Shown here piece by piece: positions 25,236 through 43,628 of a stretch of 44,242 nt of DNA. Made by a program: the position numbers and the translations under genes. The notes beneath the pieces were generated by a model. It saw nothing but the letters and a program-made list of their open reading frames with translations, was not told the origin of the DNA and did no database searches. Source of the stretch: Candidatus Omnitrophica bacterium CG11_big_fil_rev_8_21_14_0_20_41_12 (lineage in GTDB: Bacteria > Omnitrophota > Gorgyraeia > Gygaellales > Profunditerraquicolaceae); contig PCWB01000050.1 of the NCBI GenBank assembly GCA_002796135.1, positions 1 through 44,242 on the forward strand, in the 5' to 3' direction. Position 1 is the first letter of the stretch. Each line of letters starts with the position of its first letter.

Positions 25236-25240
25236 TAATT

Positions 25241-25401
25241 ATCCCTGCGGTGCAGGTTGGAAAACTGATAGTTGTTGAACCAACACAATTTTCTCGGGAA
25301 CCCACAATTTCTTAGGCACTTGTGTTTAAGAATAGGGATCCCACCTGAAACCAAATCGGTTCAGAATATCTTTCCAACGGCACATTTGCGGGGATTTTTT
25401 T
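25241..25401 (+). ncRNA. Structured RNA, candidate 6S RNA
   Basis: About 160 nt between a promoter and a G/C stem followed by T7. The ends pair (ATCCCTGC with GCGGGGAT, then GTGC with GCAC), and inward stems GTTGGAAA/TTTCCAAC, TGAACC/GGTTCA and ACACAA/TTGTGT give a long rod with an asymmetric internal bubble. Size, paired ends with CGGCA near the 3' end, rod shape and independent transcription suit 6S RNA, which binds RNA polymerase. The SRP GGAAGG loop and tmRNA tag are absent. Assignment to 6S is inference. The rest of the gap up to 25431 shows nothing else. Confidence 0.6.
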
Positions 25402-40908: not shown

Positions 40909-42193
40909 AGTAAGGTTTGCCCCCAGCCCGACGGGGAATTTACATATCGGCGGCGGCCGTACGGCTTTGTTTAACTGGCTTTTTGCGCAATCCCAAAAGG
41001 GAAAATTTATTCTTAGGATTGAAGATACGGATAAGGAGCGCTCAAAAAAAGAATTCGTTGATGAGATCCTGTACAGCCTGAAGTGGTTGGGTTTTAATTG
41101 GGACGAGCTTTATTATCAAAGCGAGCGATTTGACCGCTACCGGATGCACGCGGATAAATTGTTAAAATCCGGGCTGGCCTACATTGAAAAATCTCCCGAA
41201 GGAAAAGAAGCGATTATTTACAAGGTGCCGGCGCAAAAAATAATCGTCAATGATCTGATCCGCGGGCAGATTGAATTTGATTCCAGTTTAATTAAGGATC
41301 AGGTATTGATCAAATCCGACGGGACTCCAACGTATAATTTTGCTTGCGTTGTGGATGATGCCGAGATGAATATTACGCATATTATCCGCGGGGATGATCA
41401 TATTTCCAATACGCCTAAACAAGCGCTTATTTATGAAGCTTTGGGCTTCCCTTTGCCGCTTTTTGCGCACCTGCCTTTGATTATGGGGGTGGACGGAGGC
41501 AGGCTCTCTAAAAGGACCGGAGCAACCGCGATCAGCGACTACCGTAAGATGGGCTATCTATCCGAGGCACTATTGAATTATCTGCTTTTGCTTAGCTGGG
41601 CTCCGGGAGATAATCGTGAATTGATCAGTATTAAAGAAGCGGTAGGGTTATTTGACATCAAAAACGTCAATAAGACCGCAGTCACCTTTGATTTAAAGAA
41701 ACTGGATTGGATGAACAATCAGTATCTTAAAACCGCTGATCCAGAGAAGCTAGCTGATGAGCTTATTCCGTTACTTGAGGCCAAGAATTATATCAATAAA
41801 GACAACTTTGACCGCCGCTATCTTTTAGAGTTAGTAAAATTATTCCAGGCCAGGTTACCCCGGCTTAATGATTTCCTAGATTGGGCGGATTTTTTCTTTC
41901 TGGAAGAGCCGGTAATGGATGAGGCGGCAGTAAAAAAACATTTAGCTTTGGATTTGTCAAAAGAGCTTAAGCTTTTTGCGGACAGGTTGGATAAGTTATC
42001 CGATTTTAGTGTTGTGAATATCGAAGGCGCCTTCCGGGATTTAGTGGCGGAGTTAGGAATTGAGGCTAAAAAGTTGATCCATCCTGTGCGCGTTGCCCTG
42101 ACCGGCAAGACTATCGGCCCGGGGTTGTTTGAATTAATCTTTTGTCTGGGGAAAGAAAAGAGCATCCGGCGCCTGTTAAAGTGGGCCAAATGA
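40901..42193 (+). CDS. gltX: Glutamate--tRNA ligase
   Basis: A class I aminoacyl-tRNA synthetase. HIGH-type motif: RFAPSPTGNLHIGGGRTALF (H15). KMSKS-type motif: GGRLSKRTGA (about 198-207). The C-terminal helical anticodon domain ends with GLFELIFCLGKEKSIRRL. The start is ATG at 40901, giving 430 residues and beginning exactly at the conserved VRVRFAPSPTG; an in-frame ATG 36 nt earlier adds residues absent from the family. Whether it also mischarges tRNA-Gln (tRNA-Gln is encoded at 43555) cannot be told here. Confidence 0.95.
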   Translation: MVRVRFAPSPTGNLHIGGGRTALFNWLFAQSQKGKFILRIEDTDKERSKKEFVDEILYSLKWLGFNWDELYYQSERFDRYRMHADKLLKSGLAYIEKSPEGKEAIIYKVPAQKIIVNDLIRGQIEFDSSLIKDQVLIKSDGTPTYNFACVVDDAEMNITHIIRGDDHISNTPKQALIYEALGFPLPLFAHLPLIMGVDGGRLSKRTGATAISDYRKMGYLSEALLNYLLLLSWAPGDNRELISIKEAVGLFDIKNVNKTAVTFDLKKLDWMNNQYLKTADPEKLADELIPLLEAKNYINKDNFDRRYLLELVKLFQARLPRLNDFLDWADFFFLEEPVMDEAAVKKHLALDLSKELKLFADRLDKLSDFSVVNIEGAFRDLVAELGIEAKKLIHPVRVALTGKTIGPGLFELIFCLGKEKSIRRLLKWAK

Positions 42194-42263: not shown

Positions 42264-42353
42264 GTACAAATTTAGTTCAAGGCAAGGGGTAAACTACCAG
42301 CGGGCAGGCAATGCCCAGCAGTAAAAGCCAATAAAATTTCCCCTTGCCTTTTT
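42264..42353 (+). ncRNA. Candidate small RNA of unknown class, with intrinsic terminator
   Basis: About 90 nt between a sigma-70-type promoter and a T-run. Arms AAGGCAAGGGG (42279-42289) and CCCCTTGCCTT (42340-42350) form an 11-bp closing stem ending in T5. It encloses about 50 nt that hold a second hairpin, GGGCA-GGCAA-TGCCC (42302-42316), and unpaired purine-rich segments (TAAACTACCAG, AGTAAAAGCCAATAAAA). No reading frame of note and no known riboswitch or SRP/6S signature was recognised. It could be a trans-acting RNA or a leader and terminator for the lipoprotein 50 bp downstream. Confidence 0.5.
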
Positions 42354-42401
42354 ATTTTATGGTATTATATTGATATTGGAGTTACGATTAATCAGGGGGG
42401 G

Positions 42402-42602
42402 ATGATGGTCAGAAAATCATTTTTGCTTGGTATTCTTTTCCTTTTTGTTTTTTTAGCCAGTGGCTGTACTATAGCTAAAGGTGCGGGAGGAGCGGTTGCT
42501 GGATGTGCTCAGGGGGCAGCCGTCGGAGCCAGCCAAGGTTTTAAGGATGATGTGAGTTGGGTTACCAAGGCTGATAATTGGGTTAAAGAGAACCTCTGGT
42601 AA
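42402..42602 (+). CDS. Small lipoprotein
   Basis: A 66-residue lipoprotein precursor. The N-terminal basic-hydrophobic signal ends in the lipobox LASGC (18-22), so Cys22 should be lipidated. The mature part (about 45 residues) is Gly/Ala-rich (AKGAGGAVAGCAQGAAVGAS) then charged, ending in VKENLW; it recalls small glycine-zipper or entericidin-like lipoproteins without clear homology. A run of G (42395-42401) serves as ribosome binding site; ATG at 42405 is an equally possible start. A terminator follows at 42627. Confidence 0.75.
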   Translation: MMVRKSFLLGILFLFVFLASGCTIAKGAGGAVAGCAQGAAVGASQGFKDDVSWVTKADNWVKENLW

Positions 42603-42661: not shown

Positions 42662-42681
42662 AACAGATTTGCCCTGTCGTC

Positions 42682-42721
42682 CCTGCCTGTCGCTTGCCTG
42701 ACGGCAGACAGGACAGGCAGG
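42682..42721. repeat. CCTGCCTGTC palindromic repeat
   Basis: CCTGCCTGTC (42682-42691) is the exact reverse complement of GACAGGCAGG (42712-42721). The interior has CTTGCCTGACGGCAGACAGG with further short symmetric parts. Composition is unlike the neighbours, and it lies just before the endonuclease gene, typical of an interspersed palindromic element. Confidence 0.65.
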
Positions 42722-42745
42722 TAATCGATGTGGAAAAGGTTTATT

Positions 42746-43552
42746 ATGGTAAAATGTAATCTCTGCAACCAAGAATTTGGAAGAATTACTGAGACGCATT
42801 TGTGGTATAAGCACAAGATGCATTTTTCTAGATTCATTAAGCAATTTCCGGAAGTAAATATAGGGCCTATGTCTTGGAATAAAGGTGATACGAAAGCGGA
42901 TAATCCAGGCCTGTTAAGATTATCTAACACATTGAGAATAAAGAAAGAATGGAATTTTAGTAAATGGCAAAGAGAGAAACGTCCGGTAACTAAGTATAAG
43001 AAACTATTAAAAGGCGGGAATCTTTCGGAATTAATCGGTATAATTTTAGGTGATGGTAACTTAAATAAACATCCGAGAACAGAAAATTTAAGGATAACTC
43101 GCAATTCTAATGACACCGGTTATATAGAACATGTCAGTAGCCTTATAACAAAAGTTTTTTATAAGCATCCATCTATACGCAAGCGGAATGACGAAAATGC
43201 TATAAGCGTAGATTTATACCAGTGTAAAATTAGTGAAAGATTAAATATTCCCTGTGGTAATAAAATTAAGAATAATGTTGGGGTGCCTGATTGGGTTTTT
43301 TTAAATAAGGATTATATGCGCAGGTGCTTGAAGGGATTATTTGAAACCGATGGCTGTTTTCACGAAGACCTAAAGAATTATACCCGTTGTATGGAATTTA
43401 AAAATAATTGTGCGAGATTAAGAAAAGACGCTCATAATATCTTATTAAAGCTCGGTTTTAATCTTCAGCTTGGCACTAATTATGTCCGTTTAGCCAGAAG
43501 AAATGAAGTTTACAGGTTTAAAGAGCTAATAGATTTCCGAAATTATAATTAA
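42746..43552 (+). CDS. LAGLIDADG homing endonuclease with N-terminal zinc finger
   Basis: A 268-residue protein. Residues 4-23 have C-x2-C-x10-H-x4-H (C4, C7, H18, H23) followed by MHFSRFIKQFP, resembling the MucR/Ros-type zinc finger. Two LAGLIDADG motifs follow: LIGIILGDG (96-104, D103) and CLKGLFETDG (194-203, D202), so it acts as a monomer. The ATG at 42746 has AAAGG 7 nt upstream; an earlier ATG at 42728 adds six residues. It ends 2 bp before tRNA-Gln and lies next to a palindromic repeat and a recombinase remnant, suggesting an acquired segment. AT content is higher than in neighbouring housekeeping genes. Confidence 0.88.
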   Translation: MVKCNLCNQEFGRITETHLWYKHKMHFSRFIKQFPEVNIGPMSWNKGDTKADNPGLLRLSNTLRIKKEWNFSKWQREKRPVTKYKKLLKGGNLSELIGIILGDGNLNKHPRTENLRITRNSNDTGYIEHVSSLITKVFYKHPSIRKRNDENAISVDLYQCKISERLNIPCGNKIKNNVGVPDWVFLNKDYMRRCLKGLFETDGCFHEDLKNYTRCMEFKNNCARLRKDAHNILLKLGFNLQLGTNYVRLARRNEVYRFKELIDFRNYN

Positions 43553-43554
43553 AT

Positions 43555-43628
43555 TGCCCTCTCGGCTAATGGTAGGCCGCAAGATTCTGGATCTTGTTAT
43601 CATGGTTCGAATCCATGGGGGGCAGCCA
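43555..43628 (+). tRNA. tRNA-Gln (CTG), CCA encoded
   Basis: Acceptor TGCCCTC pairs with GGGGGCA (one T-G wobble), discriminator G, then CCA is encoded at 43626-43628, unlike the other four tRNAs here. The anticodon stem CAAGA/TCTTG holds TTCTGGA with anticodon CTG. The T-arm CATGG-TTCGAAT-CCATG is normal. It begins 2 bp after the endonuclease stop codon. Confidence 0.95.

Follow-up and report, generated by a model that had tools for sequence, protein, structure and literature searches.

The window analysed here, a stretch of 44,242 nucleotides (contig PCWB01000050.1), raises the question of what lies in the gene-free gap behind gltX. This gene ends at 42193 and the next open reading frame (ORF) starts at 42402, with no other gene between them. 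The first-pass annotation had proposed that the gap holds a new small RNA, made up of a promoter, an 11-bp stem joining the two ends, an inner hairpin and a T-run. All these parts are present, but the promoter is located just outside the interval that had been assigned to the RNA (42264-42353). Moreover, three further A-U pairs lengthen the closing stem past the bulged U42290. The predicted gene and its parts are as follows (window coordinates):

42264..42358 (+): the complete small RNA as predicted, about 90-95 nt, one copy in the genome; covariance-model match at 42276-42359, 106.6 bits
42229..42258 (+): sigma-70-type promoter; -35 TTGATA, 18-nt spacer, extended -10 TGT-TATAGT
42264..42278 (+): 5' leader, not conserved; its length in relatives is about 2-50 nt and the distance between -10 and stem varies; identity 0.47 within the genus
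42279..42289 (+): 5' strand of the closing stem P1, AAGGCAAGGGG, predicted to double as the 5' arm of the intrinsic terminator; pairs with 42340-42350 (11 bp), two-sided compensatory changes in 11 of 11 pairs
42290 (+): bulged U that separates P1 from the A-U extension, missing from some relatives in the alignment
42291..42293 (+): 5' strand of the P1 extension, AAA, with its partner UUU at 42337-42339; 96% paired, two of three pairs with compensated changes
42294..42301 (+): 5' side of the internal loop, CUACCAGC, conserved and identical throughout the genus
42302..42316 (+): apical hairpin P2, GGGCA-GGCAA-UGCCC; 100% of cells paired (45 sequences), two pairs with compensatory change
42317..42336 (+): 3' side of the internal loop, rich in A and differing in length and sequence between copies; identity 0.74 within the genus
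42337..42350 (+): 3' strand of the P1 extension and P1, UUUCCCCUUGCCUU, covarying with the 5' strand
42349..42358 (+): U-run, completing the putative intrinsic terminator, directly 3' of P1 in nearly all copies

The 5' end was placed by estimate, about 6-8 nt past the -10 element. Taken by itself, the promoter motif occurs at chance level (11 sites found versus 10.7 expected) and the fold of the window copy is moderately significant (z of -2.5 in a single-sequence test), so it is the comparison with relatives that settles whether the element is real.

Distribution among Omnitrophota

A nucleotide search found a single copy in the genome itself. It also matched 21 further genomes of the genus, as well as several genera elsewhere in the family, and most genus-mates carry one copy each. 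The search of relatives with a covariance model, which the first-pass annotation had suggested, extended this to many genera of the family and to a second family, from the same class, where the closing stem is wholly different. A rebuilt model, applied to 384 genomes from the class, brought the second family to eight genomes, among them Ca. Velamenicoccus archaeovorus (NZ_CP019384.1; copy at CP019384 1,563,800-1,563,878, minus strand), and the carriers of the window's own family span 14-15 genera. In total, 50 copies were examined, 48 of them clear and two weak, the latter both belonging to one genus (L152 and L153).

The exact pattern AYTACYAGMGGGCAGGNNNTGCCC was also scanned in 84,980 species genomes and appeared in 36 contigs, all named Omnitrophota/Omnitrophica or Velamenicoccus save one labelled "bacterium" and one with a Planctomycetales label; none of the viral contigs scanned contained it. 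Weak covariance-model matches outside both families (E between 0.001 and 0.1) were not counted, and those inspected lack the core. As far as found, the predicted small RNA family is limited to two family-level groups of the phylum Omnitrophota.

Within the genus, five genomes gave no match. Two are metagenome-assembled genomes (MAGs) without the gltX locus, two have contigs that end just past gltX, and in the remaining one (G017) a lipoprotein gene directly follows gltX and the small RNA is absent, which makes one of 23 readable loci. Many other genera and genomes of the family also lack the small RNA, and it is therefore not essential to the group. Two genomes of the genus, G011 and G008, gave no match to the gltX of the window, though G011 is rated 94% complete; the locus is probably missing from these MAGs.

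Another inverted repeat was noticed during this search. At L096:1374-1462 (minus strand), a strong repeat (GGGACAGTGGCTAATT...AATTAGCCACTGTCCC) that encloses a hairpin adjoins a tRNA-like sequence; it is unrelated to the small RNA, despite a weak match to the model.

Covariation, promoter and invariant core

The alignment of 45 sequences was fitted to the covariance model and consequently leans toward the structure; on it, standard pairs make up 96.7% of the cells over 19 base pairs, and 15 of these pairs show two-sided compensatory changes, including all 11 of P1. None of 500 shuffles matched any of the covariation measures, and controls in which the partner strand was shifted by a single column all scored far lower, with pairing down to 56-65%. 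RNAalifold recovered P1 and P2 from the same alignment with no structure supplied. In addition, stems of the second family, such as GACAGGGGGAG/CUCCCCUUGUC and GGACAU/AUGUCC (the P1 extension of some copies there), form unaided in single-sequence folds, and z was below -2 against shuffles in 50 of 50 copies (mean -3.5). P1 pairs such as the G-U in GGCGAGGGG/CCCCUUGCC would be A-C if read from the other strand, which supports the plus strand.

The two helices evolve differently. P1 drifts freely, whereas the P2 stem is nearly invariant in sequence across both families apart from compensated changes to AGGCA/UGCCU in L071 and GGGCU/AGCCC in L072. An extra helix around P2 (CUACC/GGUAG) was left out of the consensus since only 57% of the cells are paired overall; it is well formed in few genera, namely in L073, as CUGUU/GACAG in L152/L153 and as UACC/GGUA in one genus.

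Concerning the promoter, almost every one of the 50 copies, in both families, has -35 and -10 elements that fit TTGAAA/TTGATA-N16-18-TG(N)TAtAxT. When copies of the genus are compared pairwise, the mean identity is 0.83 in the -35 and 0.95 in the extended -10, against 0.47 in the leader, 0.36 upstream and 0.35 downstream. It reaches 0.94 in the P1 5' strand and 1.00 in a 27-nt core (42291-42317) shared by 22 of 22 genus-level copies, whose invariant block is AAACUACCAGC-GGGCA-GGCAA-UGCCCA. The A-rich single strands had been regarded as a likely binding core. This did not hold, as the 3' A-rich strand is the least conserved part of the interior and a poor candidate; the difference between 1.00 in the core and 0.74 in that strand points instead to the 5' strand and the hairpin as the candidate recognised part. 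In the second family, the CUACCAGC strand drifts to CUACUAGA or ACAUCUAGA.

Altogether, promoter, terminator, strand, structure and the gene itself are supported by comparative sequence, and the first-pass proposal of a new small RNA is borne out by a closing stem and an inner hairpin that are conserved and covary in relatives, by a promoter and terminator of its own, and by movement between gene neighbourhoods. The neighbours are gltX in the genus of the window, a CHAT-like gene and a repeat protein in another genus, and PilZ-like, polA-like and other unrelated genes elsewhere, including the second family (names read off the sequence and not from a domain search). The ORF that follows the small RNA in the window (42402-42602, plus strand) is small, lipoprotein-like and without a Pfam match; a similar small lipoprotein also follows gltX where the small RNA is absent (L163 and L165).

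Comparison with known RNA classes

Rfam 15 gave no match over 42264-42358 at E values up to 5, and none at the gathering score, in agreement with the lack of known signatures reported earlier. As a family, the predicted small RNA is new, but its general kind, the standalone, intrinsically terminated bacterial small RNA, is familiar. It resembles trans-acting members of that kind in its sigma-70 promoter, its length of about 90 nt, its terminator stem followed by a U-run and its single intergenic gene, and the own promoter, intrinsic terminator and independence from neighbours found by sequence comparison are those of a trans-acting RNA. It differs in that the whole conserved core lies inside the terminator stem, where those RNAs have this stem after a free seed region, and in that Hfq and ProQ were not found in the searched genomes of the lineage: Hfq in none of 128 genomes of the order, where the controls were positive, and ProQ/FinO proteins in none of 24 genomes.

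Other classes share parts of this architecture. A closing stem, a large internal loop and an apical stem are also present in 6S RNA (RF00013), which at about 160-190 nt is roughly twice as long, whereas the small RNA has no Rfam match. The window holds a separate 6S RNA at 25239-25398 (+) with 61.8 bits, above the gathering score; it was not listed in the gathering scan of the whole window and was found by searching the region alone or the genome. A 6S RNA was present in 22 of the 25 searched genomes. Y RNAs, which are bound by Ro/Rsr, are alike in their paired ends, 5'-strand bulge, large loop and U-run tail, but the TROVE/Ro partner protein was found in none of 25 genomes, 20 of them carriers. 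Finally, the CsrB/RsmZ sponges are likewise small RNAs in which a hairpin carries a G-rich loop. Here, however, there is one short loop per RNA, starting with GGC, GGU or GGA, instead of a repeated GGA, and CsrA is almost absent (above the cut-off in one of 25 genomes).

Possible function and rival explanations

The explanation that we consider probable is that the locus is a gene in its own right, encoding a structured regulatory RNA of about 90 nt that has its own promoter and terminator, acts in trans through its apical module and founds a new family in Omnitrophota. In this mechanism, the sigma-70 promoter would drive transcription of the small RNA, and the closing stem plus the U-run would end the transcript, with P1 serving both to shield the RNA ends and to terminate transcription. 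The rigid P1 stem would present a sequence-invariant apical module, AG[CA]-GGGCA-GGNNN-UGCCC, together with the adjoining 5' strand, and a partner would recognise this module in trans, without Hfq, ProQ or CsrA. Transcription is presumed from the conserved promoter and terminator, action in trans from the changing neighbours, and the apical module as contact site from its conservation.

A structure that ends in a stem and a U-run 83 nt past gltX could also be nothing else than an ornate intrinsic terminator of that gene. This seems hardly credible, given that the element has its own conserved promoter, that copies in other genera and in the second family stand away from gltX, and that an invariant 27-nt core would be superfluous in a terminator. 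A cis-acting riboswitch or attenuator of the downstream gene, with P1 as a switchable terminator, would account for the series of promoter, aptamer-like internal loop and terminator, and the next gene is mostly on the same strand. Nevertheless, it is improbable, since the downstream genes are unrelated between genera and lie on the opposite strand in several copies, and a neighbourhood that differs from genus to genus argues against a cis-regulator of one gene. Nor is there a conserved antiterminator pairing: refolding of the GGCAA apical loop onto the P1 3' strand was considered and rejected, because GGCAA resembles the P1 5' strand in the first family only and this similarity is gone once P1 changes, without the loop following. 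A small-peptide mRNA starting with the AUG at 42311 instead of a non-coding RNA finds support in the ATG present there in 43 of 50 copies, most of the others having GTG or TTG. This reading is equally hard to credit, as the frames encode from 3 to 37 residues of unrelated sequence and the NUG is forced by the conserved UGCCC of the P2 stem.

Returning to the trans-acting RNA, its partner could be a protein or an mRNA. In the former sub-case, the RNA would form a particle with, or sequester, one protein reading AG[CA]-GGGCA-GGNNN-UGCCC and have no mRNA target. The P2 stem sequence is the same in two families while P1 changes freely, which exceeds what the secondary structure needs. On the other hand, no partner gene adjoins the small RNA, the known candidates TROVE/Ro, Hfq and ProQ are those not found in the genomes above, and CsrA is not only rare but faces loops without a fixed GGA; this sub-case is possible, though less likely than not. 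In the latter, the unpaired CUACCAGC and the GGCAA loop would act as seeds for short mRNA sites. Intrinsically terminated small RNAs are usually base-pairing regulators, and the unpaired 5' strand is identical throughout the genus. However, that strand drifts between families, no known RNA chaperone was found, and the only complementarity noticed in a conserved gene, argF, occurs mostly in genomes without the small RNA; base pairing is possible but rather unlikely. A protein is slightly favoured over an mRNA as partner because P2, although paired, is conserved in its very sequence and not just in its ability to pair. A bolder proposal, tentative and on the whole unlikely, is that the RNA represents a ligand-sensing RNA or small RNA-protein particle of a new kind, whose invariant hairpin core would be read by an as yet undescribed protein or metabolite and not by mRNA pairing. 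This core is shared by two families of a phylum whose members are mostly ultra-small, and whose searched genomes yielded neither Hfq nor ProQ.

Regarding specific targets, no long complementarity to the core occurs elsewhere in its own genome. In argF, a perfect complement of 15-16 nt (codons of the MHCLPA motif) was found in three genomes, two of them without the small RNA, and the site has 3-5 mismatches in genus-mates that carry the small RNA against 2-4 in genomes that lack it. Since carriers match no better than non-carriers, argF was rejected as an antisense target and the complementarity attributed to a coincidence of conserved codons. The 790 loop of 16S rRNA was likewise rejected as a target of ACUACCAG: second-family copies read ACAUCUAG or UGUCUCG, which breaks complementarity to CUGGUAGU, presumably the usual 790-loop sequence and 806R primer site, while the 16S loop is near-universal there.

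In the literature searched, which was limited and open-access, no description of regulatory small RNAs in Omnitrophota was found. The family adds a single-copy RNA that is supported by covariation and has its promoter, terminator and invariant core defined, from a lineage in which neither Hfq nor ProQ was detected, and it bears on how small RNAs work in such a lineage. Ca. Velamenicoccus archaeovorus has a complete genome and a limonene enrichment culture, and a public metatranscriptome of this carrier exists (SRR30230645; PMC12583861), which makes the small RNA prediction testable now.

The region that follows in the window is of separate interest. A LAGLIDADG endonuclease ORF (42728-43552, plus strand; within 42669-43628) is flanked by a copy of the tRNA-Gln 5' end (TTTGCCCTGTCGTC) and by a complete tRNA-Gln at 43555-43628, and in G073 (L164) a related ORF interrupts tRNA-Gln after gltX. 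The flanking tRNA-Gln copies and this interrupted gene suggest a mobile element that has tRNA-Gln as its target and regenerates this gene.
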